DNA from: Heliocidaris erythrogramma
Taxonomy: Eukaryota; Echinodermata; Echinoidea; Camarodonta; Echinometridae
Assembly: GCA_025617745.1 (NCBI GenBank)
Contig: CM046871.1
Span: 33,239,579 to 33,303,578 of the forward strand
Length of the DNA: 64,000 bases
Reading direction: 5' to 3'
Shown: positions 26,101-64,000 of the stretch, in pieces
Layout of the letters: each line of letters opens with the position of its first letter
How positions within the stretch are numbered: position 1 is the first letter of the stretch
Program-made: the position numbers and the translations under genes
Notes under the pieces: model-generated
What the model saw: only the letters and a program-made list of their open reading frames with translations
Database searches by the model: none
What the model was told of the DNA's origin: nothing

Positions 26101-29100
26101 CCCTTAAATAGTTGTCTAAGCAGTAATTGCCTCTCTCCCCTCCTTTTTTTCCTCTTTCTCTCTTTTTATATATTTGGCTTCCGCAACTTTTCTCACACTA
26201 GCATCATCATACAAGCACTTATACATTCCCATCCCAGTCATATTTTGCAAAATCTCCAAGCTTGATTGTAGTCCGTACCTGATCTTGATATACGATCTTG
26301 ACTGAACCAAGGCACTCTAAGCTCAGGACATTCCAGGCAGACAGCTCTGTTCAACTCTTGCAGCTGACGTGATAAAGTTCTGGAAACTAACACAGAGACA
26401 AATGAAACATGAAATCATAAGTAATTAGAAAAACATAATGGGATTAATTTACATTCTGTTATTAATAAAGCCTAGCCTTTAATGCTGTACATGAATCACC
26501 TTGGGACACAAAAATGAATAAGTGTTTTGTAGAACAAGGCATTAGCAAGATTGTGTCTCGCCCACTTGCGAAAACTGGAAATATCGTGATCTCCGTTGCC
26601 ACGCAGAAGAATTGTATCTCTGGGTATCTGCCACAGAATGTAATATCCCATTAATGAGAAGGACTATTCACAAAATACTACTTCCCTCCATCGACTGCCC
26701 CCATCCCCCCCCCCCCCCCCCTTTTTAGAGATGGAATCAAAAGTTACCATCAAGTCCAATAGATTAGATTACACAAATACAAAATAGGATGATAATCAGT
26801 TGTACAATAGAGGCGAAGTAGAGTTTGTCTCTGGGTGGCATAAAAATGCAAAAAGGTTAAAAATAGTGCTAAGGTTGAAAAGTGGAAATGAATAAGGCTT
26901 TTAAAATCAATACGTTCATATGAGAAAGTTTGTCAACGAATATGAATAATGGTGAACATTATAATTGTAATAAGGCATGCATGTAAATTGAACAAAGTAG
27001 AATCATGATATTTTTGGGGACTTGATAACCTGTCAGGGGTAAAGTGAATGATTAGAGAGAGTTTAAAAGCTATAATGATGAACAGATACAAGTAATATTA
27101 ATGCATTGATATTGTATATGTGTGAATTTTAAATGTGTTTGTTAGGTTGTAATCAAAGAAACTGGTGTGAAGCTATTTGTCAAAAGAGCGTCTTGCAGGT
27201 AAACTTTAACATATGACCTCAAATGACCTTTGACCCTATCATGTGACCTCCAACGGCAACATAACGTCAAGGTACCCTCAGTGCAAATATGACCCAAGTT
27301 AGGTTGTAATCCAAGAGTCTTGCAGGTAAACTTTAACATATATGAAAAGAGAGTCTTGCAGGTAAACTTTAACATATGACCTCAAATGACCTTTGACATC
27401 ATCATGTGACCTCCGACAACATAATAACATGGAGATGCCCCTAGTGCTTCTATCACCCAAGTGTGGCTGGCAATGCAGTAACAGTTGCCAAGTAATGCAT
27501 CATAAGAGTCTTGCAGGTAAACTGTAACATTTGTGACGGACGACGGACGACGGACCGACACCATTTGGATCCCTTAGTCTCGCCTTCACCTCTGGTGGGC
27601 GAGACAACAAAAATGGCAAAAATTGCTTTGTTTTGTTTATCAAGAGTCAGAAGGGAGAAAAGAGAGTAAATTTCTAATTACTTGTATGTGACCATTCTGT
27701 AATCAATTACTAAGCTTAATTGTCTACAATAATGTTGTTCACAAGTAACATATCTTGCTAAAAAAATATCAAGAAAATAATACATGTGGAAACTAATATC
27801 AATGTACATGTTAAAGTAGCTGCAAACATTATAACTGAAACTGGTCAACTACATACACTTGATATTCTTTGACATAAGCTTACCATGCATCTCTTCCATG
27901 CTCTCTAGAAACCTCAAGCTGAATATAGTTTGAAGTAGGTCCAATGGAAAGCACTGAAGGGCAGCAAGACTGAGTGCAATGTTGATCAGTCTCTGAGGCT
28001 GTAGATCCGACATGTAAGGGATCACTCTAGAAGCACACAGGTCTTCCAGGAACGTTGGAGATGAGGGATGGTAGTTGCCACAAGTGAATGCATCCAGGGT
28101 GTCACGAACATGGAATGGTGAGATGTCATCCATGTTTGACTGAACCATTACTTCAATGGCAGCCAAGAAGGACCTGTTGTAGATGCGTTGTTGAATAAGA
28201 AGCTTGGCAACGGCAACAGCGGAAGACGAGTCACATATCCATGAGGTATCGAAGACTGGGGAAGTTGAAAGACTCTCACAAAATGTGTTTCGGGGATGTA
28301 CTGCTTCGGTACAGTACAGACCCTTTCTTACAAATTCCAGTAGGTTTAGAAGACCTTTAGGGAGGTCCATTTTGCTTGGGTAAAGATGATTAGAATAAGA
28401 GGAAAGCACAAAGAAGACTCTTCGGAGATCATGACCTTTCAAGTTTGGCATGTAGATGAGAACCTTGTCCCATATGCTTGGATCAATGTCTTCACAAGGC
28501 ACACCTAGATTGCTGAGGGCATCAAGAGTATAGACAACAATGCGAGGAGAAGGTGTCCTCATTAAGATCTTGTGAAGTTTTTCAATAAAAATAGATTGTA
28601 GCTGGGTATTAGTGGATCTAGCTGTTGCAAGATACTGTGATATATTCTTGATAGCAGTGACATCGGTTATACTATCAATATTTTCCAGGACATGATCTTC
28701 AATAAGAGCTAGAAGCCTTCCTGACTTAACTTTCATACGTCCAATAGCATTGCAAAGCCTCCCAAGTCGGTCCAAAGATACATGTGGAATAATCTCTGCA
28801 CTTTTGTTCATGAGCTGAACTGTAAGATCAGGTGCTGGGTCATGGCTTAACACCTCAATGAGAGCAAGAATTTGATGTGGTGAGGAGCACTCCATAAGCT
28901 GGTTTTTCATCTGATTTTCCAAAAGTTCCCTCAGCTCATAATTCCTGGAATAAACTTTCCTAAGATTGCTGTAGATAATGGCCATCTCGATTGCAGGAAT
29001 TGCAGGAACTTTGGGAATGAGCAACTGGCTAACCCTTGTCATGATTTGATCTCTATTCTCCCTGCTTCTCATGAGAACCGCTCCTTGCATGATGCGCCTG

Positions 29101-30254
29101 ATGTCATTAAACCCATAGGAGGCTCCTGCAACAAACAGCTGCAAGCAGTGTTGCGTGATTTGATTCTCCAAGTTTTCAGAACATAACGTGATGAGTGTGT
29201 AGAAAATATGAGAAAAGTCACTTGGACTGTTGATGTCATCAAGGATATCGGCCATTCTGGAAGTCATCAATCCTGCAAATGGAGTCTGGTGTCTGTTCAT
29301 CATTATTATGGCCTTTGATAATGGCGAAAGGTGGATACTGTCTAAGACATCAACAGCGCGATACAGTTTCTGAACAATGTTGCAGACAGCAGGATGGGTG
29401 ATATCGACGCTACAGTGTAGGAGCCCCAGAAGAAGCCTTGAGAGAGGGTCGACCTCATATTCTTGGTCATTTGTCAATAGTTCTTGGATGTGGGAGAGTA
29501 AGCTCTGCATGATGACATCTGCTTCATCACTGTCAACACTATATTTTGGGATGACATCCTTGACAGACTGAGTGCAACGGACAAACATAGCAGCATCATT
29601 GAGATCAAAGGATTGCACCTTGAGACTTAGAGTGTGGTACAGCACAGTGATTGCAGGACTGGTCACCTGAGGAACTCCAAACTTCAAGACCAAATACAGC
29701 ACATTCAGGGCCTCGGCATTGGACAATGAATCTGCATGAACTTGGATCAGACTACAAAGCTGTTGCAACATGGGGTGATTGTGAAGGACTTCTGCATACT
29801 CCAGCCATAGCTTAATATCATCTCTAACCATCCAAATACATTCCCACAGCTTGTTAACAGCAATGCACAGATCTTTCGGAGTCATCTCATTTAGATGATG
29901 TGAAACCACTTCAAGAGAATGCATAAGGTCTCCACCTTCCCTAAAGTTAAGGATGCTGTTACCAGGATCCAATCTTAAATTCAGATGTATACTAGGAGAG
30001 TAATCCACAGTTGCCTTCTCTTCTGCATAATGAGACATAGAAAGGTACTGCTGCTTGAGAGTCCACATGCTCCCTGGTGACCTAAAGGCTGCTAGCCTCA
30101 GTGCTCCTGAGTATGTTGCAGGGTGTACCAGGCTAGATAAACCTCTTCCATTAGGAGCAAGTCGAATCAGTGGGTTGGGTGACACTCCCCATGATCTGAT
30201 CCACAACTTTTGAAGATGCTTTAGGCATGAGGTACAGATGGCACTGAAAGACAT
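23198..30254 (-). CDS. FASTKD1: FAST kinase domain-containing protein, FASTKD1-like
   Basis: Six coding exons join in phase into 1022 codons plus stop: 27884-30254, 26279-26386, 25529-25642, 24266-24413, 23750-23864 and 23198-23410. The ATG at 30254 is preceded by an in-frame TGA nine bases upstream. The first 77 residues have no acidic residue and many Arg, Lys and Ser, a good mitochondrial presequence. The middle is alpha-helical repeat sequence. FAST_1 and FAST_2 lie at about residues 680-850, with LSLAALQCFPLDLLQTIF and LNRAVCLECPELRVPWF. DFECILDHQGQPLTY and a RAP domain (MKRRHLEILGYEYIT, VDWSRD) close the protein. FASTKD proteins bind mitochondrial RNA and control its stability or processing. 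Similarity to human FASTKD1 (847 aa), as I recall it, is strongest in the FAST and RAP parts; the extra length is N-terminal and in exon 5. Confidence 0.92.
24571..24735. mobile_element. 165-bp MITE with long inverted repeats
   Basis: CCTGGGCCCCGTTGCATAAA plus ACTTACCATTAATGGTAAC at the left is matched by its inverted copy (GTTACCGTTAATGGTAAG, TTTTATGCAACGGGGCCCAGG split over 24700-24735) at the right, with one or two mismatches in about 39 bp. The inside also repeats ACCATGGTAAC motifs. It lies in a FASTKD1-like intron. Confidence 0.85.
24913..25030. repeat. Dispersed repeat shared with 40312-40437
   Basis: AAGCTTTTCGTCTTGCACTC, GCAAGAATGAACAGAAAGC, GAAATCGAGCAATATAA and GGAAACTAAAGGAAC occur here and, with about 10 percent change, in an RFC4 intron. 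They could derive from a short coding exon of a repeat family (reads as an AFRLALxRI and [10 protein letters not shown] helix in both places). Confidence 0.7.
25382..25515. mobile_element. 134-bp MITE with CAGTGGCGGATCCAGG termini and 6-bp duplication
   Basis: Left CAGTGGCGGATCCAGG and right CCTGGATCCGCCACTG are perfectly inverted. TCCTCA occurs directly at both borders (25376-25381 and 25516-25521). The inside carries G and C runs (17 G at 25411-25427) that form a second hairpin. It lies immediately inside the intron after the third FASTKD1-like coding exon. A half copy starts near 34303. Confidence 0.88.
26551..27607. mobile_element. About 1.06-kb non-autonomous element with TGTCTCGCCCAC ends
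   Basis: TTGTGTCTCGCCCACTTG near 26551 and GGTGGGCGAGACAACAA near 27596 form inverted ends of about 14 bp. Inside, four copies of GTCTTGCAGGTAAACTTTAA or close variants (27188, 27320, 27351, 27508), each followed by ACATATGACCTCAAATGACC where complete, and a GACGGACGACGGAC tract near the right end mark a repeat-built element. It occupies the intron between the first and second FASTKD1-like coding exons. Confidence 0.6.
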
Positions 30255-30320
30255 CGCTCTTCACCAGATCATCAGATTTCCTGTAATGGCCAAGTCCTCT
30301 GTCATGTCTTTCATGTAAAC
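30255..30320 (-). other. FASTKD1-like 5' UTR, with splice acceptor
   Basis: A TTTGTATTCCAG acceptor (minus strand) ends at 30321, so the coding exon carries about 66 nt of 5' untranslated sequence and at least one non-coding exon lies further right. The untranslated part contains out-of-frame or stop-terminated ATGs. Confidence 0.6.
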
Positions 30321-34799: not shown

Positions 34800-36780
34800 C
34801 GCGACTCGACTCTGCGTCAAGTTTTTCAGTGAGTAATCACGTTTCAAATTGTCAGAATGTAGGTGGATTCAGTCAATAATCCTCCCTTCTGACTTTACTT
34901 TTGAATAAATTATTAGGCCAAATGAAATTAATTCCAGTGTCGATCTCTTCCCCAGCTCATCCTCCTTTCCTTTTTCCCCAGCCCGCCTTAAATATTTGTT
35001 ATTTGTTGTTTCTGTTGTGCAATGTTATATACATGTATAATAATAGAAGGAACAAGAATCATCAATATAATACATTTTGACTTTGTGATTCTCTTATTAA
35101 GTGCATGTACAACTTATTGAATAAGTAAAGTTTGTCAAAATTGACTGTTTAATTACATTTCATGTACAAGATATTAAATATCAAATAGCATGGAGCCTCC
35201 TCCTTAATTTTAAAAATCTGGACGAGAAACTAGGACTGGTTCCAATTTCGGATACTACGACCGGTAATCCATGACTATACAATCCGTGTTGCACAGAGAC
35301 AACTAACTATTGATGTAGGTACATGTACCACTGCACTAAATAATACCAGCTTATGTCAAGGTTAGGTCTCTTTATCCCTCCACCGGCCCAGCACACACAC
35401 ACCCACCCAAGTACAATCTATTTTTTCCTTCTAAATCTGTCATCTTCTCTGAAACAATTTTCTATTTTGTCATTTTTGAATTTTCTGAATATATACTTTC
35501 CATTTCCCTTTGTATTTTCTTTGACTTTTGTTAGTCATTTTCTCATACTAATCGTTTACCCTTCTCTCTACCGAATTGCAGTGAATCTTATGCAGATCCA
35601 TTTTTATTTTGATGCACCCCACTTTCTCTGTTCAGTTACTACCATCACCATTCTCACCACTCCAATTTACCTCCTCTTTTTTTTTGTTTATATACTATAC
35701 TATACTATCTCTATTTGTCTCTTGTACCTCCTCTCTAAAGCCCGCCTCACACTGTGCGATTTTTCAAGCAATGACTTGCTATGCGATGCAAAGCGAATTT
35801 GAGCGATATCGCAGTCCATCGCAATGTGGGGCGGGCCTAATGGTAATCTATCTTCCCCTCTCCCTAGCTTGCTCTCCGTTTCCCTCTTCTATTTTCTTCC
35901 TTTCCCCAACCTCTTTCTCTCTCCCTCAATCTCTATCTCCCTCCTTCTCTCTTCCTCCCGTTTTGTGTCATAGGCTACCAGTAATACAAAGAGTTTGTCA
36001 TAACCGTGTTCTTCCACTGTATCAGTACATGGGCCAGGAATAATTGTGTACATATATAAGTATAACTTTTCATACAAGGTTATAAAAGTGTCTTTATTCT
36101 CAAATACATATATTGTATACGTTTATGAGGACAAAACTAATGAGTTACAATGACATATAAACATGTATGATGGTTTATAAAACAGAATGGAAGCATGTCA
36201 CGAAATCTCTGCAGCTGACAAAATCTTACTGGTGTGTAATACATGTACATCTACATAATCTTACCACAAGCCTATGAACTATTACTCTCCCAGTTGGAAT
36301 TTGGACGGGTCTTTTTGTAGATGAAGCAAAAATATTCTCTAAACTCTGGAAATTCAGAAATTTAAGCTAAATTTCATCTATTACGGTACACTCTCTCTCT
36401 CTCTGAAGACTTTTATGACCCCATGTCACAAAAGTCCAGATAGGTGCTCCATGGAAAGCTGCTATAGATTTTAATTTCAAATCAACATTTTGGAAAACCT
36501 GGAAACAAATAGGAGAAAATACTTTGGAAGTGGCCATTCAAAATTCTCTTAAACACATCCATATTTCAAAGCAATTACCAAAAAAAAATACATGCTATCA
36601 GTTATTGGTACTGTTTGTAAATGTATTTTTGGTTTTTACTCTAAATATCCTAATAAGAAAAGATAACGCTTAAATATGTCAAGAAAAATTTTCAAAATTA
36701 TTTCCTTGCCGAGAAAGTTGCCTCTTTGTGTATGATGGCACAGCTCTGGGGGCATGGTTGGCCGGTAAAAAAAACCCAAA
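34800..36780. other. Non-coding stretch, pyrimidine-rich in the middle
   Basis: Between about 35390 and 35960 the plus strand is rich in C and T, which keeps long frames open without protein-like content. A small inverted-repeat element lies at 35740-35838 and a (CT)n run at about 36392-36402. No gene is supported. Confidence 0.5.
35740..35838. mobile_element. About 100-bp MITE, GCCCGCCTCACACTGTGCGAT ends
   Basis: GCCCGCCTCACACTGTGCGA at the left pairs with TCGCAATGTGGGGCGGGC at the right (about 20 bp, three mismatches). No target duplication is clear. Confidence 0.6.
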
Positions 36781-37910
36781 ATGGCCATGCCGCAGTTTGT
36801 TGTCATGACAGACGAGGATTTGAAGGAACTAATTGATGGTGCTGATTCTTCTAACACAAAAAAACAAATCAAATACGCCGTAAGCCGTCTGGATGCATTT
36901 GCGGTATTCGTTGGGACGTCTCTATCTGAAGTAGAAGCGCTGTCGGATGAAGAGCTCGACAAATTTCTGTACACAAAGAAGTCAATGCTCAGCATCAGGT
37001 ACGGACTACATCGTCATTTTAAGACAGTAAAAGATGTTATTACAAAATCTGACAGGTTTCATCGTAGTCACGAGACCTACAAAGCAATGATGTGTAAATT
37101 GAAGCAAGCAGGAAAGGGGTATGTCAAGCACAAAAGTGCGATCAGTAAGGAAGATATGGCCAAAATTTTGGCCTCTGATGTGCTTGATCTCACAACACCA
37201 CAGGGCTTGCAGAACAAAGTCTTCTTAGACATTATGATATATTTTGCCAACAGAGGACGTGAAAATCTATGTGACATAGCTGCCCTGTCTCAACATTTCT
37301 GGCTTACAAAGCAGCATTACATCCTGCAATGGACTGTTTATGACAGCGTCCTAAACCTACAGCTCCAGCAGAGGGTCCATGGTACTGCAACTGTCCATTA
37401 GGTGTGAACAATCTTGGTAACAAAATGAAAGAAATCGCGAAGGCAGCGGGTTGCGCAAAGAATTACACAAACCACAGTCTTCGGGCCACGACAGTTACCG
37501 TCCTGGATCGTGCCGGTTTCGCTAACCGTGATATCATGTCTGTTACTGGTCACAGATCGGAAACTTCACTAAAACACTATGCTTCTATAAGCGATGACAG
37601 GAAGAAAGAAATGAGTAGCAAGATTGCTTGCAAAATGATGCAAGAAAATGTGCCAACACCGTCTAGTGCTAGTGCATCTAACAACAGCGCTGGTACCAAG
37701 ACTAAGAGTAGGCCTACATCTAAGCCTGCTAAGCCTGTACAGGATGTCGCATTAGGGGATCAGGATGACACACTGGATTCACTCTTGACATTGTCTCAAG
37801 AACAACTAATTCTACAAGAATCCAACTTCAACATTCAGAATGCAACATCATCTTCAGTGCAGCATTTCCATTTTCATGGACCCGTAACTATCTACAATGT
37901 CAGCAAATAG
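36781..37910 (+). pseudogene. Crypton-type tyrosine recombinase gene, internal deletion (copy 2)
   Basis: Frame 36781-37401 starts MAMPQFVVMTDEDLKELIDG and carries LSIRYGLHRHFKTVKD, HKSAISKEDMAKILASD and MIYFANRGREN (first catalytic Arg). The next protein text lies in a different frame (TFLAYKAALHPA, LWQRPKPTAPAEGPWYCN) and flows into the frame from 37404: GVNNLGNKMKEIAKAAGC, YTNHSLRATTVTVLDRAGF (HxxR), MSVTGHRSETSLKHYASI (His, Tyr) and a C-terminus ending SVQHFHFHGPVTIYNVSK. Compared with the copy at 19864-21154, about 40 residues between the Arg box and the WQRPK segment are missing. Cryptons cut and paste DNA using a Tyr recombinase without inverted ends. The two copies are far apart in sequence, so they are old or of different subfamilies. 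Confidence 0.85.
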
Positions 37911-48502: not shown

Positions 48503-48935
48503 TACCATTTCCTGGTCGCCGCGGGCGCTGACATCTCCCCAAAAGATTTTTGTCCTTAAAAATTCGGTCCCTATGGCGTACACGGAAAAGTCCAGATTTT
48601 CTGTGTGCGCGATCGTAAAGATCGATGTGAGCTTGCGATCCCGAGTTTCTTCGTGGACAAAAATTTTATTGGCCGATTTTAGTCCAACACATCGGCAGTA
48701 TGTAAACAACACGCGATCGCGAAACAAATCGGCGGGGATTTCTCCGGTTTTGGACAAGACTTTGACTTTGGATTTTGCTGAAAATATCAAAAGTTCTTCC
48801 CAACAGCCATTTGAGGTAGGAGTGAGATTTTTAAGGGCTGAATTTGAAAGCAAGTATTTAAAATATTTATCTTATTTTTCTCCCCATACCTTTAGTACAT
48901 GCGACAGAAAATACCAACTATTTTACAGCAATGTA
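48503..48935 (+). mobile_element. Module copy A (left-truncated)
   Basis: It starts at ATTTCCTGGTCGCCGCGGGC and runs to CCAACTATTTTACAG near 48930, matching the right two thirds of the copy at 55901-56587. The first roughly 270 bp of the module are absent; the left neighbour sequence is not part of the family. It is the copy closest to RFC4. Confidence 0.8.
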
Positions 48936-48944
48936 GCCATGAGT

Positions 48945-49607
48945 CACTCATAGCTACATTCCTATACTTCGTGTGTATAATGTAGGCAGTCAGACACCTC
49001 AACTTTTTAAAACACCACTGCACAAAAGTCACAAACATTCACTCAAAATCGGCGTTTAATTTACAAAAACCGACCACAAAATATCCAAGAAATACAATAA
49101 ATTCAACTCACCGATGTTGGAAAAGATATTTCCAAAAATCAAATCCGTAATTTACTGTTGACTCTCGCGAAACGAGCTATCGGAGTCAATGTGTACATTT
49201 CCTGGTCGCCGCGGGCGCTGACATCTCCCTAAAAGAGTTTTGTCCTTAAAAATTCGGTCCCTGTGGCATACAAGGAAAAGTCGCGATTTTCTGCGTTCGC
49301 GATCGTAAAGATCGATGTGCGCTTGCGATCCCGAGTTTCATGTGGACAAAAATTTTATTGGCCCATTTTAGTCTAAGACATCGGCAGTATGTATGTAAAC
49401 AACACGCGATCGCGAAACAAATCGGCGGGGATTTCTCTGGTTTTGGACAAGATTTTGACTTTGGATTTTGCTGAAAATATCAAAAGTTCTTCCTAACGGC
49501 CATTTGAGGTAGGAGTGAGATTTTTAAGGGCTGAATTTGAAAGCAAGTATTTAAAATATTTATCTTATTTTTCCCCCCATACCTTTACTACACGCGACAG
49601 AAAATAC
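48945..49607 (+). mobile_element. Module copy B
   Basis: Begins CACTCATAGCTACATTCCTA, ends at GCGACAGAAAATAC. Internal marks in order: CGATGTTGGAAAAGATATTT, CTCGCGAAACGAGCTATCGG, GGTCGCCGCGGGCGCTGACA, CGATCGTAAAGATCGATGTG, ACACGCGATCGCGAAACAAA, CCCCCCATACCTTTACTACA. Confidence 0.85.
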
Positions 49608-49643
49608 TATTTTTGCATGTTGTATTCAATATGACCACTATTC

Positions 49644-50448
49644 CACATCAGCAAGCAATGGTCATATTGACCATTAGAATCATATACATGTGTGTATACT
49701 GGGTATTGGGGATACAGATGTAATTTTGTTTGAAATTGATGTTTTTGTGGGCAAACTGATACTTAAGTATCACTCTTTAGATTTAACGTTTTAAGTTCGT
49801 TAAGATACAAAATGTAGAAAGTTATAAAAACTTACATTTACAGCCCTCTTTTTGGTACTTGTTACCCACACCTCCATACGGATGACGACTGCTCTCAATA
49901 TGTTGCGCACTAGTGAGGCCGCTCTACATGGTTACGCACCGTAGATACGTACGCAGAATGTTACGCACACAAGCTATTCTACGAAGACCTGGAAGGGCCA
50001 AACTAACGACGTAAAAAAATAAAAAATATTACGTACGTACGTAGTAATTATTACGTACGTACGTAATATTTTTTATTTTTTTACGTCGTCAGTTTGGCCC
50101 TTCCAGGTCTTCGTAGGAGATCGACGAACCGATCGCGCCGGTACTACTACGAGCGCTGAGGGCTCCCTTCATCATAATCGTGAAAAATACAAACTGGATG
50201 CTGACGGGACTCGATAGCAGTTATCGACAAAAAGGACCCAAAATTTCAGGAAACCCTCTTCAAAGGTCACAAAACAACCTGGTAAGTTTTAATCATCTAT
50301 TATTCAACATAAGTATTTGGATTTAAGTAAACTGCAATATATGAGTTTCAATTAAATATAGCCAAAAATGCACAGTGATGCAGTTTAGGTATGGGATGTG
50401 TGTTGGCTGCGTTACTACACAGTCGGCAATGGCGTGTACCTATGAGTG
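49644..50448 (-). mobile_element. Related 0.8-kb element, left inverted arm
   Basis: On the plus strand it starts CACATCAGCAAGCAATGGTC and ends GTGTACCTATGAGTG. Positions 49748-50448 are the inverted copy of 55199-55902, and 49644-49746 matches 56590-56690 inverted. It shares the CTATGAGTG end with the modules but not their core. A 138-bp palindrome lies at 49979-50116. Confidence 0.85.
49979..50116. repeat. 138-bp near-perfect palindrome (left copy)
   Basis: Starts CTACGAAGACCTGGAAGGGC, ends GCCCTTCCAGGTCTTCGTAG. The arms continue CAAACTAACGACGTAAAAAA and TAAAAAATATTACGTACGTA to a centre around GTAGTAATTATTACG. Only one or two mismatches in 69-bp arms. Confidence 0.95.
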
Positions 50449-50470
50449 GACGCTGCAACTTCGTGGCAGC

Positions 50471-50573
50471 GTCCACAACACGCGATCGCGAAACAAATCG
50501 GCGGGGATTTCTCCGGTTTTGGACAAGATTTTGACTTTGGATTTTGCTGAAAATATCAAAAGTTCTTCCTAAC
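50471..50573 (+). mobile_element. Module piece C (left part of a split module)
   Basis: CACAACACGCGATCGCGAAA through AGTTCTTCCTAAC. Its continuation (GGCCATTTGAGGTAGG) lies at 51299, after the inserted element D. Confidence 0.85.
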
Positions 50574-51290
50574 CACACCACGAATAGTGGTCATATTGAC
50601 CACTACGAATACAATATGCAAAAATAGTTGTTATTTTCTGTCGCGTGTAGTAAAGGTATGGGGGGAAAAATAAGATAAATATTTTAAATACTTGCTTTCA
50701 AATTCAGGCCTTAAAAATCTCACTCCTACCTCAAATGTCCGTTAGGAAGAACTTTTGATATTTTCAGCAAAATCCAAAGTCAAAATCTTGTCCAAAACCG
50801 GAGAAATCCCCGCCGATTTGTTTCGCGATCGCGCGTTGTTTACATACTGCCGATGTCTTAGACTAAAATGGGCCAATAAAATTTTTGTCCACGAAGAAAC
50901 TCGGGATCGCAAGCGCACATCGATCTTTACGATCGCGCACGCAGAAAATCGGGACTTTTCCGTGTATGCCACAGGGACCGAATTTTTAAGGACAAAACTC
51001 TTTTGGGGAGATGTCAGCGCCCGCGGCGACCAGGAAATGTACACATTGACTCCGATAGCTCGTTTCGCGAGAATCAACAGTAAATTACGGATTTGATTTT
51101 TGGAAATATCTTTTCCAACATCGGTGAGTTGAATTTATGGTATTTCTTGGATATTTTGTTGTCGGTTTTTGTAAACTAAATGCCGATTTTGAGTGAATGT
51201 TTGTGACTTTTGTGCAGTGGTGTTTTAAAAAGTTGAGGTGTATGACTGCCTAAATTATACACACGAAGTATAGGAATGTAGCTATGAGTG
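50574..51290 (-). mobile_element. Complete module element D with 8-bp target duplication
   Basis: 717 bp. On the plus strand it starts CACACCACGAATAGTGG and ends GTAGCTATGAGTG. TTCCTAAC lies directly at both sides (50566-50573 and 51291-51298), and outside it the split module C/E can be read through with one TTCCTAAC. This defines the ends of the family: CACTCATAG at one end, CACACCACGAATAG at the other. An 8-bp duplication and CA..TG ends suggest the hAT superfamily. Confidence 0.9.
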
Positions 51291-51356
51291 TTCCTAACGG
51301 CCATTTGAGGTAGGAGTGAGATTTTTAAGGGCGGAATTTGAAAGCAAGGTATTTAA

Positions 51357-52631
51357 AGGGCGAGTCAATTAGAATTACATTTCATGATAATATCAAAGTA
51401 TTGTGTCAATATTGCTAGAAATCGCATATACTTTTTATTAAAAAGATCTGTGTACTTCTCTAAGCTCCGTTGAAATTGCCTAAATCGCACGTTTATCAGC
51501 TAGTCTGTCACGCCCCTCGAAAAATAGGGCCCAGTCACGTGCCTTGTCAGGTGACCTGTGACGTACCATCGGGAACGTCTAGCTAGCGGACGACGCTTGT
51601 CTGTGTATATCCAGTGCAGGGAATTTTGGATAGGCATGATAGGAGTGCATATCTCAAGAAAATGCCGCGGAGATGTGTTGTTGCTGGGTGCAGCAAAGGC
51701 ACCAGCGATGGTGTCAGTCTGCACACCTTTCCTAAAGGTGATGCAACTCGAAAAATTTGGATTTCAAGGATCAAGCTGACGCGAGCTAGCTCAGTGGGAT
51801 GGCCCTTCCGCTCACAGTACTGTTTGCAGTGACCACTTCAGGGAGGAGGACTTCGATAGTCAGGCCCTCAGGCCAGGGGCTGTATGACCAGCTAGGATTT
51901 GCGCCCAAGAATAAAATGCTGCGGCCGACAGCTATCCCTGTCATCAGACTGGGAACTGAGGGCTGTGGAACTGGAAGCCAAACACAGGGAGCTAAAAAAA
52001 CAAGAGTCGGTCTGCAGTTCTGAAGCTGGAGTCACTGGAGAAAAAGAGGGTAGGTCTACCGTACCGTACCGTAGAGCCCGGGGGGGGGGGGGGGGCACTC
52101 AACCTGTTTTTGGATGTGGATGTGCCGCTGCCAATCTCAAAACAGGGGGCTAAGGAGCTAAATGGTTAATTGAGGAAGCTCATTTTTGAGGGTCTAAGGA
52201 GAGAACGGGCTCATGGGCAGAGCTAATTTTAGCTGCTCGCGATCTCACTACTCTGGTACACATACGGTGCATGAACTGAGTCAGCGGTCGCAGCGCTGTT
52301 TTTAACGCTGTACATGCCGCGCCACTGCACTGGCTCGATGTCGCATGCAGATTGATCTCGCTGAGCCGCCGCTAGCACTAGTAATACCGCGTTCAGTTAG
52401 GGGGCACTAGGTCGCCCAGCTCCCCGCTGCGCTGGCCTGGGAGGCTAGGGAGCGACCGTTCCCGGACAATGGGCTGTGCGCATTGTTTTCTCATATTCTA
52501 GGGAGCGAGTCGGAAGCCAATCGAGGTGCGGTTAGTGAAAATCTGAAAATCGCATATCATGGGAGCGACCCGAGAAGGTTGAAAATGGGGGACGTCACAG
52601 CGGCACATACATGTGTGACATATATATGTGA

Positions 52632-52662
<31 letters not shown>

Positions 52663-53259
52663 GGGAGGCAGCTAGCTTGCAGCACACGATTTTGCTGTAA
52701 TTGTTGTAATATATTTAGACTTTCATCCAGTTTTTCAGTGTACTTGGTTGTTATCATAAGCACGCACACAAAGATTCGCAAGGTACGGTCAGCAGTAAAG
52801 CGACTGTCCACACGTCTACTTGTCTGTAAAATATTACGTTTTTCCAAAACATAAACCTAATCCAAAAGAGGAATTATCATGGGTAAAGTGTTTGAAAAAA
52901 TGCCAGACTTGTCATTTGACCTCTACTAAAATGTCTAAACAACCTATTCAAATCCTTTTGGGGGACTTAAAGATTGTCGAAATTGTATAAATAGTGATAT
53001 GAAAATGGATAAATTATCATTCATTTACATTGCCAACATATTTGTCAACCTTAGTGGCTTCGCGGGGGACTTCCCGATGCTACGTCAAATCGCTCTAGCC
53101 AATCAGCTGTCAATTTTTGGGGGCGTTCCCAAATTAGTGAGTTTTTTGACCAATTTCTTGTTACTGGGCAATTTTTTTTCTGTAAAAATGTCAGAATTGT
53201 GTCATTGGACCTATGTACTACATTTTTAGCCCCAATGTTGATTCTAATTGACTCGCCCT
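51357..53259 (+). mobile_element. 1.9-kb Kolobok-like element with THAP relic
   Basis: Ends AGGGCGAGTCAATTAGAAT and its exact inverted copy ATTCTAATTGACTCGCCCT, flanked by TTAA (51353-51356 and 53260-53263). The paralogous uninterrupted site in other modules reads GTATTTAAAATATTTATC with a single TTAA. The inside holds a THAP zinc finger (see the entry at 51662) and poly-G and poly-C runs (52080, 52629-52662), but no transposase core that I can recognise. TTAA duplication, AGGG ends and a THAP domain together point to the Kolobok superfamily. Confidence 0.8.
51662..51960 (+). pseudogene. THAP-type zinc finger, frameshifted
   Basis: From ATG 51662 the text reads PRRCVVAGCSKGTSDGVSLH and TFPKGDATRKIWISRIKLTR (first Cys pair, conserved FPK and Trp). 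A frame change near 51795 gives WDGPSAHSTVCSDHFREEDF with the Cys and His of the C2CH site, then back in another frame LYDQLGFAPKNKMLRPTAIP, the usual THAP tail. A short helical segment (VELEAKHRELKKQES) follows in a third frame. THAP domains bind DNA in P-element, Kolobok and host proteins; two frame breaks suggest decay or introns I cannot place. Confidence 0.72.
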
Positions 53260-53391
53260 TTAAAATATTTATCTTATTTTTCCCCCCATACCTTTACTAC
53301 ACGCGACAGAAAATACAAACTATTTTTGCATTTTGTATTCGTAGTGGTCAATATGACATGATATGACCACTATTCGTGGTGTGGTGACAAG

Positions 53392-53700
53392 CACTCATAG
53401 CTACATTCCTATACTTCGTGTGTATAATGTAGGCAGTCATACACCTCAACTTTTTAAAACACCACTACACAAAAGTCACAAACATTCACTCAAAATCGGC
53501 ATTTAATTTACAAAAACCGACCTCTAAATATCCAAGAAATACAATAAATTCAACTCACCGATGTTGGAAAAGATATTTCCAAAAATCAAATCCGTAATTT
53601 ACTGTTGATTCTCGCGAAACGAGCTATCGGAGTCATTCTGTATATTTCCTGGTCGCCGCGGGCGCTGACATCTCCCCAAAAGAGTTTTGTCCTTAAAAAT
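53392..53700 (+). mobile_element. Module fragment (left part only)
   Basis: Begins CACTCATAGCTACATTCCTA and breaks off after GTTTTGTCCTTAAAAAT. It is followed by the GTATTCGTAGTGGTCAATAT end sequence, so the middle and right parts were lost. Confidence 0.8.
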
Positions 53701-53740
53701 TGTATTCGTAGTGGTCAATATGACCACTATTCGTGGTGTG

Positions 53741-54085
53741 ATATTGACCACTACGAATACAAAATGCAAAAATAGTTGTTATTTTCTGTCGCGTGTAGTA
53801 AAGGTATGGGGGGAAAAATAAGATAAATATTTTAAATACTTGCTTTCAAATTCAGGCCTTAAAAATCTCACTCCTACCTCAAATGGCAGTTAGGAAGAAC
53901 TTTTGATATTTTCAGCAAAATCCAAAGTCAAAATCTTGTCCAAAACCGGAGAAATCCCCGCCGATTTGTTTCGCGATCGCGCGTTGTTTACATACTGCCG
54001 ATGTCTTAGACTAAAATCGGCCAATAAAATTTTTGTCCACGAAAAAACTCGGGATCGCAAGCGCACATCGATCTTTACGATCGCG
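53741..54085 (-). mobile_element. Module piece F (outer part of a split module)
   Basis: On the plus strand it runs from ATATTGACCACTACGAATAC through the reversed core to CGATCTTTACGATCGCG at 54085. The rest continues at 54822 after inserted element G. Confidence 0.8.
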
Positions 54086-54093
54086 CCATGGAT

Positions 54094-54813
54094 CACTCAT
54101 AGCTACATTCCTATACTTCGTGTGTATAATGTAGGCAGTCATACACCTCAACTTTTTAAAACACCACTGCACAAAAGTCACAAACATTCACTCAAAATCG
54201 GCATTTAATTTACAAAAACCGACCACTAAATATCCAAGAAATACAATAAATTCAACTCACCGATGTTGGAAAAGATATTTCCAAAAATCAAATCCGTAAT
54301 TTACTGTTGATTCTCGCGAAACGAGCTATCGGAGTCATTGTGTACATTTCCTGGTCACCGCGGGCGCTGACATCTCCCCAAAAGAGTTTTGTCCTTAAAA
54401 ATTCGGTCCCTATGTGGCATACACGGAAAGTCCCGATTTTCTGTGTGCGCGATCGTAAAGATCGATGTGCGCTTGCGATCCCGAGTTTCTTCGTGGACAA
54501 AAATTTATTGGCCGATTTTAGTCTAAGACATCGGCAGTATGTATGTAAACAACACGCGATCGCGAAACAAATCGGCGGGGATTTCTCTGGTTTTGGACAA
54601 GATTTTGACTTTGGATTTTGCTGAAAATATCAAAAGTTCTTTCTAACGGCCATTTGAGGTCGGAGTGAGATTTTTAAGGACTGAATTTGAAAGCAAGTAT
54701 TTAAAATATTTATCTTATTTTCCCCCCATACCTTTACTACACGCGACAGAAAATATGAACTATTTTTGCATTTTGTATTCGTAGTGGTCAATATTACCAC
54801 TATTCGTGGTGTG
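54094..54813 (+). mobile_element. Complete module element G with 8-bp target duplication
   Basis: 720 bp, CACTCATAGCTACATTCCTA to CACTATTCGTGGTGTG. CCATGGAT flanks it directly (54086-54093 and 54814-54821). Joining the outside gives a module of opposite orientation (F plus H). This is a second, independent case of an element inserted in its own kind. Confidence 0.9.
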
Positions 54814-54821
54814 CCATGGAT

Positions 54822-55178
54822 CGCGCACACAGAAAATCGGGACTTTTCCGTGTATGCCACAGGGACCGAATTTTTAAGGACAAAACTCTTTTTTGGAGAT
54901 GTCAGCGCCCGCGGCGACCAGGAAATGTACACATTGACTCCGATAGCTCGTTTCGCGAGAATCAACAGTAAATTACAGATTTGATTTTTGGAAATATCTT
55001 TACCAACATCGGTGAGTTGAATTTATTGTATTTCTTGGATATTTTGTTGTCGGTTTTTGTAAATTAAATGCCGATTTTGAGTGAATGTTTGTGACTTTTG
55101 TGCAGTGGTGTTTTAAAAAGTTGAGGTGTATGACTGCCTACATTATACACACCAAGTATAGGAATGTACCTATGAGTG
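54822..55178 (-). mobile_element. Module piece H (inner part of a split module)
   Basis: CGCGCACACAGAAAATCGGG to GGAATGTACCTATGAGTG, completing piece F. Confidence 0.82.
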
Positions 55179-55534
55179 GTCAATATGACCACTATTCGCA
55201 CTCATAGGTACACGCCATTGCCGACTGTGTAGTAACGCAGCCAACACACATCCCATACCTAAACTGCATCACTGTGCATTTTTGGCTATATTTAATTGAA
55301 ACTCATATATTGCAGTTTACTTAAATCCAAATACTTATGTTGAATAATAGATGATTAAAACTTACCAGGTTGTTTTGTGACCTTTGAAGAGGGTTTCCTG
55401 AAATTTTGGGTCCTTTTTGTCGATAACTGCTATCGAGACTGTCCCGTCAGCATCCAGTTTGTATTTTTCACGATTATGATGAAGGGAGCCCTCAGCGCTC
55501 GTAGTAGTACCGGCGCGATCGGTTCGTCGATCTC

Positions 55535-55672
55535 CTACGAAGACCTGGAAGGGCCAAACTGACGACGTAAAAAAATTAAAAATATTACGTACGTACGTAA
55601 TAATTACTACGTACGTACGTAATATTTTTTATTTTTTTACGTCGTCAGTTTGGCCCTTTCAGGTCTTCGTAG
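55535..55672. repeat. 138-bp near-perfect palindrome (right copy)
   Basis: Same palindrome as at 49979-50116: CTACGAAGACCTGGAAGGGC to CCCTTTCAGGTCTTCGTAG, centre with ACGTACGTAATAATTACTAC. One arm has a CTTTCAGG for CTTCCAGG change. Confidence 0.95.
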
Positions 55673-55900
55673 AATAGCTTGTGTGCGTAACATTCTGCGT
55701 ACGTATCTACGGTGCGTAACCATGTAGAGCGGCCTCACTAGTGCGCAACATATTGAGAGCAGTCGTGATCCGTATGGAGGTGTGGGTAACAAGTATCAAA
55801 AAGAGGGCTGTAAATGTAAGTTTTTATAACTTTCTACATTTTGTATCTTAACGAACTGATAACTTAAAATCTAAAGAATGATACTTAAGTATCAGTTTGC

Positions 55901-56587
55901 CCACTCATAGCTACATTCCTATACTTCGTGTGTATAATGTAGGCAGTCATACACCTCATCTTTTTAAAACACCACTGCACAAAAGTCACCAATATTCACT
56001 CAAAATCGGCATTTAATTTTCAAAAACCGACCCCAAAATATCCAAGAAATACAATAAATTCAACTCACCAATGTTGGAAAAGATATTTTCAAAAATCAAA
56101 TCCGTAATTTACTGTTGATTCTCGCGAAACGAGCTATCGGAGTCATTGTGTACATTTCCTGGTCGCCGCGGGCGCTGACATCTCCCCAAAAGAGTTTTGT
56201 CCTCAAAAATTCGGTCCCTATGGCGTACACGGAAGAGTTCCGATTTTCTGTGTGCGCGATCGTAAAGATCGATGTGCGCTTGCGATCCCGAGTTTCTTCG
56301 TGGACAAAAATTGTATTGGCCGATTTTAGTCTAAGACATCGGCAGTTTGTAAACAACACGCGATCGCGAAACAAATCGGCGGGGATTTCTCCGGTTTTGG
56401 ACAAGATTTTGACTTTGGATTTTGCTGAAAATATCAAAAGTTCTTCCTAACGGCCATTTGAGGTAGGAGTGAGATTTTTAAGGGCTGAATTTGAAAGCAA
56501 GTATTTAAAATATTTATCTTATTTTCCCCCCCATACCTTTAGTACATGCGACAGAAAATACCAACTATTTTACAGAAATGTACCCGG
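55901..56587 (+). mobile_element. Module copy I
   Basis: CACTCATAGCTACATTCCTA to CCCGGGTGTG, inserted between CAGTTTGCC and ACAAAAACATC of the right arm. No clear 8-bp duplication was found here. Its right terminus differs from the GTATTCGTAGTGG type and resembles copy A (CCAACTATTTTACAG). Confidence 0.8.
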
Positions 56588-56700
56588 GTGTGACAAAAAC
56601 ATCAATTTCAAACAAAATTACATCTGTATCCCCAATACCCAGTATACACACATGTATATGATTCTAATGGTCAATATGACCATTGCTTGCTGATGTGGTC

Positions 56701-57479
56701 AATATGACCATTGCTTGCTGATGTGACTATTCGTGGTGTGGTGTCTGGTGACAAGTGACAGCAACATTTCACGATATTCGATAATGACAAATTGATCTTA
56801 ATTACAGAAACTTTTAATTAACAGAATATATCCACAAATTTAGAAACCAATACCGCTTGTTGAGTGCTGACCCCCCCCCCCCCCCGCCCTCCCCTCAAAA
56901 AAGTTATTTTTAAGTTTAACTTAAGTTCTAAATCTAACATGTCTAATTCTAATAAAGTCATACACGACAAACATGGAAATGAATGAATGGGGCTGGTTTT
57001 TAATCTAGTAACATGTCTAATGCCGCGCCTTGGTTAATGCTGGGAAACGCTTTCCAAAGAAAGACACAAAGATTAAACATCGTTAAACGTCCATTCAGAA
57101 TCCATTTTAGGCTTCACTCGAACTCACCTGATATACCAAGCTTCCACCGGCACCGGACTGTAAAACTGTGGGCTAGCGACAGACGGGTTGCCATTCCCTG
57201 ATTCGCTCCTTGAATCTGGCGACCACAAGTTCAGCGACCAATTAGGGTGTCGCCGAGACGTCCAACAGAAAACAGAAAAATATTTCTAAATCGAAAAGAT
57301 CATGTAATACCATTCATTTACTAAATTTGGAATCTGTAGAGGGTGAAAATTGGTCTAAAAATAGTCTTCGTTGCATCTTAAATAGCATGGGCCAAACTAT
57401 TAAAATTTCAAACCAATAACTCGGAATTTATTGCTTTCATGAGAGAATTCGAATACCGTACTTCCGGCGAAGAACATCG
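56701..57479. other. Non-coding stretch before the satellite
   Basis: Contains TGCTTGCTGATGTG and TGACTATTCGTGGTGTGG, two loose ends of the preceding repeat family, a poly-C run at about 56873-56885, and no recognised gene. Confidence 0.5.
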
Positions 57480-60400
57480 CTCAATTGAAAATAAATCAAG
57501 CTAGTATTACAAGTGTTACAGATGTTCGCAAGACATTTCATATTCTTAGCTGTTTACACCATGAAAAAGAGGAGATATTCAGCTTTATCATGGTATAGGT
57601 CACTATGCTTAGCAAGTTGTCTGGATCTTACTGTTTAAACTTCAACACGGCACATATTCTCGAAATATTATACACTTCGTATGAACATTAGCGCCAGTGC
57701 GGTATTACATGCTGCTTCACGTTACTCAATAATGAAGTTCTGCAGAAAAAGTGTTATAAATATTCGCAAGACATTTCATATTCTTAGCTGTTTACACCAT
57801 TAAAAAGAGAAAATATTCAGCTTTCTCATGTTATAGGTCACTATGCTTAGCAAGTTGTTTGGATCTTACTGTTTAAACTTCAAGACGCCATATATTCTCG
57901 ATATTATTACGCTTCGCATGAACAATATAGCGCCAGTGCAATATTCTATGCAGCTTCACGTAACTCAATAATGAAGTTCTGCAGAAAAAGTGTTATAAAT
58001 ATTCGCAAGACATTTCATATTCTTAGCTCTTTACACCATGAAAAAGAGGAGATATTCAGCTTTATCATGGTATAGGTCACTATGCTTAGCAAGTTGTCTG
58101 GATCTAACTGTTTAAACGTCAAGACGCCATATATTCTCGATATTATTACGCTTCGCATGAACAATATAGCGCCAGTGCAATATTCTATGCAGCTTCACGT
58201 AACTCAATAATGAAGTTCTGCAGAAAAAGTGTTATAAATGTTCGCAAGACATTTCATATTCTTAGCTCTTTACACCATTAAAAAGAGGAAATATTCAGCT
58301 TTCTCATGTTATAGGTCACTATGCTTAGCAAGTTGTTTGGATCTTACTGTTTAAACTTCAAGACGCCATATATTCTCGATATTATTACGCTTCGCATGAA
58401 CAATATAGCGCCAGTGCAATATTCTATGCAGCTTCACGTAACTCAATAATGAAGTTCTGCAGGAAAAGTGTTATAACTATTCGCAAGACATTTTATATTC
58501 TTAGCTGTTTACACCATTAAAAAGAGGAGATATTCAGCTTTATCATGTTATAGGTCACTATGCTTAGCAAGATGTCTGGATCTTACTGTTTAAACTGCAA
58601 TACGGCATATATTCTCGATATTATTACGCTTCCCATGAACAATAGCGCCAGTGCAATATTCTATGCAGCTTCACGTAACTCAATAATTAAGTTCTGCAGA
58701 AAAAGTATTATAAATGTTCGCAAGACATTTCATATTCTTAGCTCTTTACACCATGAAAAAGAGGAGATATTCAGCTTTATCATGGTATAGGTCACTATGC
58801 TTAGCAAGTTGTCTGGATTTTACTGTTTAAACTTCAATACGGCACATATTCTCGAAATATTATACACTTCGTATGAACATTAGCGCCAGTGCGGTATTAC
58901 ATGCTGCTTCACGTTACTCAATAACGAAGTTCTGCAGAAAAAGTGTTATAAATGTTCGCAAGACATTTCATATTCTTAGCTCTTTACACCATGAAAAAGA
59001 GGAGATATTCAGCTTTATCATGGTATAGGTCACTATGCTTAGCAAGTTGTCTGGGTCTTACTGTTTAAACTTCAACACGGCATATATTCTCGATATTATT
59101 ACGCTTCGCATGAACAATATAGCGCTAGTGCAATATTCTATGCAGCTTCACGTAACTCAATAATGAAGTTCTGCAGAAAAAGTGTTATAAATGTTCGCAA
59201 GACATTTCATATTCTTAGCTCTTTACACCATGAAAAAGAGGAGATATTCAGCTTTATCATGGTATAGGTCACTATGCTTAGCAAGTTGTCTGGATCTTAC
59301 TGTTTAAACGTCAAGACGCCATATATTCTCGATATTATTACGCTTCGCATGAACAATATAGCGCCAGTGCAATATTCTATGCAGCTTCACGTAACTCAAT
59401 AATGAAGTTCTGCAGAAAAAGTGTTATAAATGTTCGCAAGACATTTCATATTCTTAGCTCTTTACACCATGAAAAAGAGGAGATATTCAGCTTTATCATG
59501 GTATAGGTCCCTATGCTTAGCAAGTTGTCTGGATCTTACTGTTTAAACTTCAAGACGCCATATATTCTCGATATTATTACGCTTCGCATGAACAATATAG
59601 CGCCAGTGCAATATTCTATGCAGCTTCACGTAACTCAATAATGAAGTTCTGCAGGAAAAGTGTTATAAATGTTCGCAAGACATTTCATATTCTTAGCTCT
59701 TTACACCATGAAAAAGAGGAGATATTCAGCTTTATCATGGTATAGGTCACTATGCTTAGCAAGTTGTCTGGATCTTACTGTTTAAACTTCAAGACGCCAT
59801 ATATTCTCGATATTATTACGCTTCGCATGAACAATATAGCGCCAGTGCAATATTCTATGTAGCTTCACGTAACTCAATAATGAAGTTCTGCAGAAAAAGT
59901 GTTATAAATATTCGCAAGACATTTCATATTCTTAGCTCTTTACACCATTAAAAAGAGGAAATATTCAGCTTTCTCATGTTATAGGTCACTATGCTTAGCA
60001 AGTTGTTTGGATCTTACTGTTTAAACTTCAAGACGCCATATATTCTCGATATTATTACGCTTCGCATGAACAATATAGCGCCAGTGCAATATTCTATGCA
60101 GCTTCACGTAACTCAATAATGAAGTTCTGCAGGAAAAGTGTTATAAATATTCGCAAGACATTTCATATTCTTAGCTGTTTACACCATTAAAAAGAGGAAA
60201 TATTCAGCTTTCTCATGTTATAGGTCACTGTGCTTAGCAAGATGTCTGGATCTTACTGTTTAAACTGCAATACGGCATATATTCTCGATATTATTACGCT
60301 TCGCATGAACAATATAGCGCCAGTGCAATATTCTATGCAGCTTCACGTAACTCAATAATGAAGTTCTGCAGAAAAAGTGTTATAAATGTTCGCAAGACAT

Positions 60401-63400
60401 TTCATATTCTTAGCTGTTTACACCATTAAAAAGAGAAAATATTCAGCTTTCTCATGTTATAGGTCACTATGCTTAGCAAGTTGTTTGGATCTTACTGTTT
60501 AAACTTCAAGACGCCATATATTCTCGATATTATTACGCTTCGCATGAACAATATAGCGCCAGTGCAATATTCTATGCAGCTTCACGTAACTCAATAATGA
60601 AGTTCTGCAGAAAAAGTGTTATAAATATTCGCAAGACATTTCATATTCTTAGCTCTTTACACCATGAAAAAGAGGAGATATTCAGCTTTATCATGGTATA
60701 GGTCACTATGCTTAGCAAGTTGTCTGGATCTAACTGTTTAAACTTCAAGACGCCATATATTCTCGATATTATTACGCTTCGCATGAACAATATAGCGCCA
60801 GTGCAATATTCTATGCAGCTTCACGTAACTCAATAATGAAGTTCTGCAGAAAAAGTGTTATAAATGTTCGCAAGACATTTCATATTCTTAGCTCTTTACA
60901 CCATTAAAAAGAGGAAATATTCAGCTTTCTCATGTTATAGGTCACTATGCTTAGCAAGTTGTTTGGATCTTACTGTTTAAACTTCAAGACGCCATATATT
61001 CTCGATATTATTACGCTTCGCATGAACAATATAGCGCCAGTGCAATATTCTATGCAGCTTCACGTAACTCAATAATGAAGTTCTGCAGGAAAAGTGTTAT
61101 AACTATTCGCAAGACATTTTATATTCTTAGCTGTTTACACCATTAAAAAGAGGAGATATTCAGCTTTATCATGTTATAGGTCACTATGCTTAGCAAGATG
61201 TCTGGATCTTACTGTTTAAACTGCAATACGGCATATATTCTCGATATTATTACGCTTCCCATGAACAATAGCGCCAGTGCAATATTCTATGCAGCTTCAC
61301 GTAACTCAATAATTAAGTTCTGCAGAAAAAGTATTATAAATGTTCGCAAGACATTTCATATTCTTAGCTCTTTACACCATGAAAAAGAGGAGATATTCAG
61401 CTTTATCATGGTATAGGTCACTATGCTTAGCAAGTTGTCTGGATTTTACTGTTTAAACTTCAATACGGCACATATTCTCGAAATATTATACACTTCGTAT
61501 GAACATTAGCGCCAGTGCGGTATTACATGCTGCTTCACGTTACTCAATAACGAAGTTCTGCAGAAAAAGTGTTATAAATGTTCGCAAGACATTTCATATT
61601 CTTAGCTCTTTACACCATGAAAAAGAGGAGATATTCAGCTTTATCATGGTATAGGTCACTATGCTTAGCAAGTTGTCTGGGTCTTACTGTTTAAACTTCA
61701 ACACGGCATATATTCTCGATATTATTACGCTTCGCATGAACAATATAGCGCTAGTGCAATATTCTATGCAGCTTCACGTAACTCAATAATGAAGTTCTGC
61801 AGAAAAAGTGTTATAAATGTTCGCAAGACATTTCATATTCTTAGCTCTTTACACCATGAAAAAGAGGAGATATTCAGCTTTATCATGGTATAGGTCACTA
61901 TGCTTAGCAAGTTGTCTGGATCTTACTGTTTAAACGTCAAGACGCCATATATTCTCGATATTATTACGCTTCGCATGAACAATATAGCGCCAGTGCAATA
62001 TTCTATGCAGCTTCACGTAACTCAATAATGAAGTTCTGCAGAAAAAGTGTTATAAATGTTCGCAAGACATTTCATATTCTTAGCTCTTTACACCATGAAA
62101 AAGAGGAGATATTCAGCTTTATCATGGTATAGGTCCCTATGCTTAGCAAGTTGTCTGGATCTTACTGTTTAAACTTCAAGACGCCATATATTCTCGATAT
62201 TATTACGCTTCGCATGAACAATATAGCGCCAGTGCAATATTCTATGCAGCTTCACGTAACTCAATAATGAAGTTCTGCAGGAAAAGTGTTATAAATGTTC
62301 GCAAGACATTTCATATTCTTAGCTCTTTACACCATGAAAAAGAGGAGATATTCAGCTTTATCATGGTATAGGTCACTATGCTTAGCAAGTTGTCTGGATC
62401 TTACTGTTTAAACTTCAAGACGCCATATATTCTCGATATTATTACGCTTCGCATGAACAATATAGCGCCAGTGCAATATTCTATGTAGCTTCACGTAACT
62501 CAATAATGAAGTTCTGCAGAAAAAGTGTTATAAATATTCGCAAGACATTTCATATTCTTAGCTCTTTACACCATTAAAAAGAGGAAATATTCAGCTTTCT
62601 CATGTTATAGGTCACTATGCTTAGCAAGTTGTTTGGATCTTACTGTTTAAACTTCAAGACGCCATATATTCTCGATATTATTACGCTTCGCATGAACAAT
62701 ATAGCGCCAGTGCAATATTCTATGCAGCTTCACGTAACTCAATAATGAAGTTCTGCAGGAAAAGTGTTATAAATATTCGCAAGACATTTCATATTCTTAG
62801 CTGTTTACACCATTAAAAAGAGGAAATATTCAGCTTTCTCATGTTATAGGTCACTGTGCTTAGCAAGATGTCTGGATCTTACTGTTTAAACTGCAATACG
62901 GCATATATTCTCGATATTATTACGCTTCCCATGAACAATAGCGCCAGTGCAATATTCTATGCAGCTTCACGTAACTCAATAATTAAGTTCTGCAGAAAAA
63001 GTATTATAAATGTTCGCAAGACATTTCATATTCTTAGCTCTTTACACCATGAAAAAGAGGAGATATTCAGCTTTATCATGGTATAGGTCACTATGCTTAG
63101 CAAGTTGTCTGGATCTTACTGTTTAAACTTCAATACGGCACATATTCTCGAAATATTATACACTTCGTATGAACATTAGCGCCAGTGCGGTATTACATGC
63201 TGCTTCACGTTACTCAATAACGAAGTTCTGCAGAAAAAGTGTTATAAATGTTCGCAAGACATTTCATATTCTTAGCTCTTTACACCATGAAAAAGAGGAG
63301 ATATTCAGCTTTATCATGGTATAGGTCACTATGCTTAGCAAGTTGTCTGGGTCTTACTGTTTAAACTTCAACACGGCATATATTCTCGATATTATTACGC

Positions 63401-64000
63401 TTCGCATGAACAATATAGCGCTAGTGCAATATTCTATGCAGCTTCACGTAACTCAATAATGAAGTTCTGCAGAAAAAGTGTTATAAATGTTCGCAAGACA
63501 TTTCATATTCTTAGCTCTTTACACCATGAAAAAGAGGAGATATTCAGCTTTATCATGGTATAGGTCACTATGCTTAGCAAGTTGTCTGGATCTTACTGTT
63601 TAAACGTCAAGACGCCATATATTCTCGATATTATTACGCTTCGCATGAACAATATAGCGCCAGTGCAATATTCTATGCAGCTTCACGTAACTCAATAATG
63701 AAGTTCTGCAGGAAAAGTGTTATAAATGTTCGCAAGACATTTCATATTCTTAGCTCTTTACACCATGAAAAAGAGGAGATATTCAGCTTTATCATGGTAT
63801 AGGTCACTATGCTTAGCAAGTTGTCTGGATCTTACTGTTTAAACTTCAACACGGCACATATTCTCGAAATATTATACACTTCGTATGAACATTAGCGCCA
63901 GTGCGGTATTACATGCTGCTTCACGTTACTCAATAATGAAGTTCTGCAGAAAAAGTGTTATAAATATTAGCAAGACATTTCATATTCTTAGCTGTTTACA
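57480..64000. repeat. Satellite array, 238-240 bp unit, about 27 copies, runs off the window
   Basis: The anchor GCAAGACATTTCATATTCTT occurs about every 239 bp (57528, 57766, 58005, 58244 and so on). Each unit also holds TAGGTCACTATGCTTAGCAA, ACTGTTTAAAC, GCGCCAGTGC and GAAGTTCTGCAG. Two main variants exist: one with CTCGATATTATTACGCTTCG and CAATATTCTATGCAGC, the other with CTCGAAATATTATACACTTC and CGGTATTACATGCTGC. Blocks of 11 units (2626 bp; 58560 and 61186 are equivalent) and 7 units (1670 bp; 61186 and 62856) are near-identical. The 76-aa frames at 58560, 61186 and 62856 are the same unit variant that happens to lack stops, not genes. Confidence 0.97.

Follow-up and report, generated by a model that had tools for sequence, protein, structure and literature searches.

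Self-nested X and Z repeat families and the reuse of their insertion sites in the genome of Heliocidaris erythrogramma

The nest on contig CM046871.1

The window analysed here, a stretch of 64,000 nucleotides on contig CM046871.1 of the sea urchin Heliocidaris erythrogramma, holds at positions 48506-56740 a nest of repeat elements, composed of X copies (X717, ~717 bp, and its sister X670, ~690 bp), of a second, related family Z (~805 bp) and of an unrelated insert of 1903 bp (Table 1). Two complete X717 elements, e1 (717 bp) and e2 (720 bp), are 96.1% identical to each other, and each is flanked by a perfect 8-bp duplication within an X copy of the opposite orientation. With the element removed and its flanks joined, the e1 junction gives a 158-bp alignment to X at 96.8% identity (X position 550), and the e2 junction gives one of 400 bp at 95.3% (X position 346). 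The first-pass annotation, made from the letters of this DNA, had described both elements with their lengths, ends and duplications, had placed them in oppositely oriented relatives and had found the hosts readable after removal of the insert; all of this was borne out when the coordinates were rechecked. Its limits enclosed only the middle of the nest, to which the Z family and the TTAA-flanked insert have now been added.

Table 1. Components of the nest, in window positions
Feature	Positions	Strand	Duplication, flanks and remarks
c1, 5'-truncated X670-type copy	48506-48944	+	3' end like inverted X 5' end
c2, X717 copy interrupted near its 3' end by Z-left	48945-49643	+	
Z-left, Z at the c2 3' end	49644-50448	-	left flank ACTATTC; right-hand duplication not found
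H1, 5'-truncated host X copy of e1, split by e1 and the TTAA-flanked insert	50475-53383	+	blocks 50475-50573, 51291-51357, 53259-53383
e1, complete X717 in opposite-strand X copy	50574-51290	-	TTCCTAAC at 50566-50573 and 51291-51298
Kolobok-like insert, 1903 bp	51357-53259		TTAA duplications; inverted ends AGGGCGAGTCAATTAGAAT; THAP-domain fragment (Pfam THAP, E 3.4e-6)
c5, internally deleted X717 copy, 349 bp	53392-53740	+	
c6, host X copy of e2, 3' tip lost	53741-55178	-	parts 53741-54085 and 54822-55178; start set by eye
e2, complete X717 in opposite-strand X copy	54094-54813	+	CCATGGAT at 54086-54093 and 54814-54821
Z-right, Z in the 3' end of an X copy, interrupted by c4	55199-56725	+	ACTATTCG at 55191-55198 and 56726-56733
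c4, X670 within Z-right	55902-56592	+	right flank ACAAAAAC; left duplication copy absent, presumably lost

The insert in H1 combines TTAA duplications with a THAP domain, which we take to be Kolobok features; a tie between it and the X family was rejected, given these duplications and its different ends. Also rejected was a composite transposon with Z-left and Z-right as inverted arms: Z occurs solitary, with duplications of its own, at other loci, and Z-right has its own perfect duplication. Both Z copies in the window contain a near-perfect 138-bp palindrome with a ACGTACGTACGT core (49979-50116 and 55535-55672), and the same palindromic self-match is present in most sampled Z copies.

Ends, target duplications and coding content

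Beyond the window, copies were examined at sampled genomic loci (designated by L-numbers such as L014, L017 and L065), which are the best-scoring 40 of 2105 and 40 of 2168 first-look candidates; a single assembly underlies all counts. Among 88 full-length copies (sampled loci and window), an 8-bp duplication matching at seven or eight of eight positions was found in 73 when the ends were allowed to move by as much as 2 bp, and in 70 at the exact ends. Because 73 copies carry a matching duplication, those of e1 and e2 are very unlikely to have arisen by chance. From 56 perfect duplications picked among the sampled copies, a palindromic consensus GTYNNRAC was obtained, strongest at G1 and C8; T2 is present in 28 of the 56 and A7 in 25. 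Helitron-like movement was rejected in view of the 8-bp duplications.

The end CACTCATAGSTACA is common to X717, X670 and Z; further motifs treated as ends of these families are CACACCACGAATAG, CACATCAGCAAGCAA and CACTCATAG. The terminal pentamers are CACTC, CACAC and CACAT. In X717 and Z the 5' and 3' ends are unlike and have only their CAC tips in common, in agreement with the lack of a long inverted repeat that the first pass had remarked for the family of e1 and e2; this lack applies to X717, whereas the sister X670 has imperfect inverted repeats of ~16 bp that match, by eye, at 12-14 of 16 positions. The X717 3' end differs from that of X670 and resembles that of Z. X670 3' ends vary among the sampled copies (CCCGGG and CCGTG in L024-L065), and the combination of one body with different 3' ends in X670 and X717 suggests end swapping.

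Three open frames of X (130-167 amino acids) gave no Pfam match at E 0.1, and no family transposase was seen among open frames of at least 130 amino acids in the sampled loci, read by eye. Counts of exact 5' ends in the genome reached 3950 and 1526. The families are thus short, numerous and, as judged from the three X frames, non-coding, like miniature inverted-repeat transposable elements (MITEs). With the frames and the 8-bp duplications, that part of the first-pass annotation which called the family non-autonomous is supported; its hAT part is considered below.

Insertion into resident copies across the genome

The self-targeting seen at e1 and e2 recurs, with 8-bp duplications, at many places in the genome. 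X ends are clustered, 47 of the first 99 gaps measuring at most 3 kb against 1.8 expected, and X and Z together occupy roughly 0.4% of the genome, a rough estimate derived from the exact-end counts. At 206 places genome-wide, two 5' ends stand head to head, 1-30 bp apart. The gap, known for the 50 places listed, is exactly 8 bp in 34, 17 bp in four, 20 bp in three and scattered in nine, where an even spread would predict fewer than two per length; the 34 gaps of 8 bp comprise 27 distinct 8-mers after strand folding. The spacing is as if the second element had landed inside the duplication of the first.

Individual sites within the elements were used more than once. The site ACAAAAAC in Z received X717 (L017), X670 (L055) and probably c4 in the window; TTCCTAAC in X received e1 and, in the opposite relative orientation, the element of L040; GTCATATT in Z was used by X (L024) and by Z (L051); CTCATAGG/C in element tips was used three times (L019, L025, L041); and ACTATTCG in X was used by Z-right and, on the left flank alone, by Z-left. 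L035, L062 and L065 each hold two elements, both flanked on either side by the same perfect 8-mer. The paralogous loci L054 and L062, compared without the right-hand unique flank of L062, are alike from the left flank through the first Z, beyond which L054 enters other sequence and L062 continues with a second Z, a repeat of the 8-mer, an extra C and an X670 end.

Mechanism, transposase and known systems

Taken together, these observations make it highly probable that X717, X670 and Z are non-autonomous elements, moved in trans, which reuse resident elements and their duplications as targets. We infer a cut-and-paste transposase, and a single one, that would act on the ends common to the three families, make an 8-bp staggered cut and weakly prefer a palindromic target like GTYNNRAC. 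Element interiors, tips and, most of all, the 8-bp duplication next to a resident copy would serve again as its targets; new copies landing in or against old ones would then give nests, and chains with a common duplication. The most likely cause would be sequence-guided reuse, since a duplication left by a successful insertion necessarily repeats a good target; short-range transposition, or transposase that stays on the ends of resident copies, probably contributes.

Several points weigh against this interpretation. The sampled loci are no random draw. A good duplication is absent in 15 of the 88 copies, and for c4, Z-left and c2 in the window no second duplication copy was found. One 8-mer occurs at three neighbouring places among the 34 eight-bp pairs, as would follow from duplication of the locus; L014/L016 and L054/L062 are segmental or tandem duplicates that explain some of the clustering, and spacings recur near C1:10.61 and 12.42 Mb, which points to duplicated units there. 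Shared 8-mers could stem in part from recombination between copies. Finally, no transposase with the X/Z ends came to light: these ends were not found, with up to two mismatches allowed, in the 2.4 kb downstream (3' side only) of 20 of the 76 places in the genome that match the hAT dimerisation domain.

As to the enzyme, GTYNNRAC is compatible with hAT or P elements. A transposase of the P-element type is, by a narrow margin, the leading candidate, if a tentative one, and P-like traits (8-bp duplications, self-insertion, double insertions) render it at least as likely as hAT. The P-element target is GTCCGGAC, which GTYNNRAC with its strong G1 and C8 resembles, and double P insertions in Drosophila singed-weak resemble the chains described here. 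Excerpted text of PMC1562414 states that P elements and P-MITEs make 8-bp duplications, and that of PMC4744444 reports a P construct inserting into itself. Against P, X717 and X670 do not have the inverted repeats of 27-31 bp that the former source gives for Anopheles P elements.

The hAT-like assignment of the first pass is not supported in that form. A non-autonomous hAT family, whose nesting would reflect only the ordinary target taste of hAT elements in a crowded genome, is slightly less likely than a P-type source. The genome has 76 matches to the hAT dimerisation domain, the duplications are of the proper length, and the counts of T2 and A7 recall the hAT pattern nTnnnnAn; but the strongest positions are G1 and C8, the terminal pentamers depart from the hAT end consensus YARNG, the share of X and Z in the genome is too small for chance nesting, and the autonomous partner with matching ends, for which the first pass had recommended a search, was not seen in the 20 3' flanks read. 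A source outside both superfamilies is unlikely.

We also regard as unlikely an active self-homing, in which transposase on resident ends captures newcomers and steers them into the resident duplication or tip. If true, it would limit gene damage, and insertions would build up into head-to-head chains and palindromes. Regional survival, or a few nested units multiplied by segmental or tandem duplication without any targeting, is improbable as the origin of the nests: the two duplicated pairs and the repeated C1 spacings speak for it, but it would alone yield no 8-bp peak, the 34 gaps of 8 bp hold 27 distinct 8-mers, and reused host sites carry different elements or orientations. An assembly artefact is barely credible, for although a single assembly was used and repeats assemble poorly, nests built in this way are present on many contigs, with differing flanks and perfect duplications.

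Nesting and double insertion are already known, and the X/Z families are a real, abundant variant of this behaviour, of interest for its scale and site reuse. Stowaway elements target the 2-bp TA. The carrot DcSto Stowaway MITEs share with X/Z a preference for clustered insertion and differ in their 6-bp inverted repeats (PMC3695323). Anopheles P-MITEs are similar in being multicopy, in having unrelated interiors and 8-bp duplications, and in comprising several subfamilies and one composite (PMC1562414, in part), but they keep the inverted repeats of known autonomous P elements, whereas the ends of X717 are unlike and no autonomous partner is known. Double insertion at one target site, the second copy entering the duplication of the first, is traced to McGurk and Barbash (2018) in passages of PMC12628747 and PMC9659126; adjacent copies there arise from landing in the duplication, as they would here, yet the cases concern Drosophila (hobo) tandems, whereas X/Z involve three non-autonomous families and head-to-head pairs are common. 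In Atlantic cod, MITE arrays derived from hAT at inversion breakpoints are likewise nested, with inverted repeats of non-autonomous elements, but are confined to two breakpoint pairs in the portion of PMC12368964 consulted, while X/Z nests lie on many contigs, with no hAT link found in the flanks read. The titles listed in our literature search held no account of X717, X670 or Z, which is not proof of absence.

Target choice and gene sparing by transposons have mostly been studied in active laboratory systems. Thousands of X/Z copies, young where sampled, preserve target choice at base resolution in the 8-bp spacing peak, the reused host sites and the before-and-after pair of paralogues. Such a natural record could be used to ask whether duplications are chosen just for being good targets or whether newcomers are recruited by resident ends, and the chains may seed repeats, palindromes, satellites and rearrangements.

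Near the nest, a tandem array with a 239-bp unit, in at least 27 copies, extends over 57451-63954 of the window, with weaker copies recurring in a pattern. A 16-bp minisatellite runs from 41435 onward (83 overlapping 300-nucleotide matches). At 9039-12161, on the reverse strand, a reverse transcriptase frame (Pfam RVT_1, 2.8e-20) with a second long frame overlapping it looks DIRS-like by eye, and of two overlapping frames at 36769-37907 the second (37344-37907) matches Pfam Phage_integrase (1.6e-6), perhaps from a Crypton or DIRS element. An 803-amino-acid frame at 27852-30260 on the reverse strand, with a FAST kinase-like subdomain, is probably a host gene.
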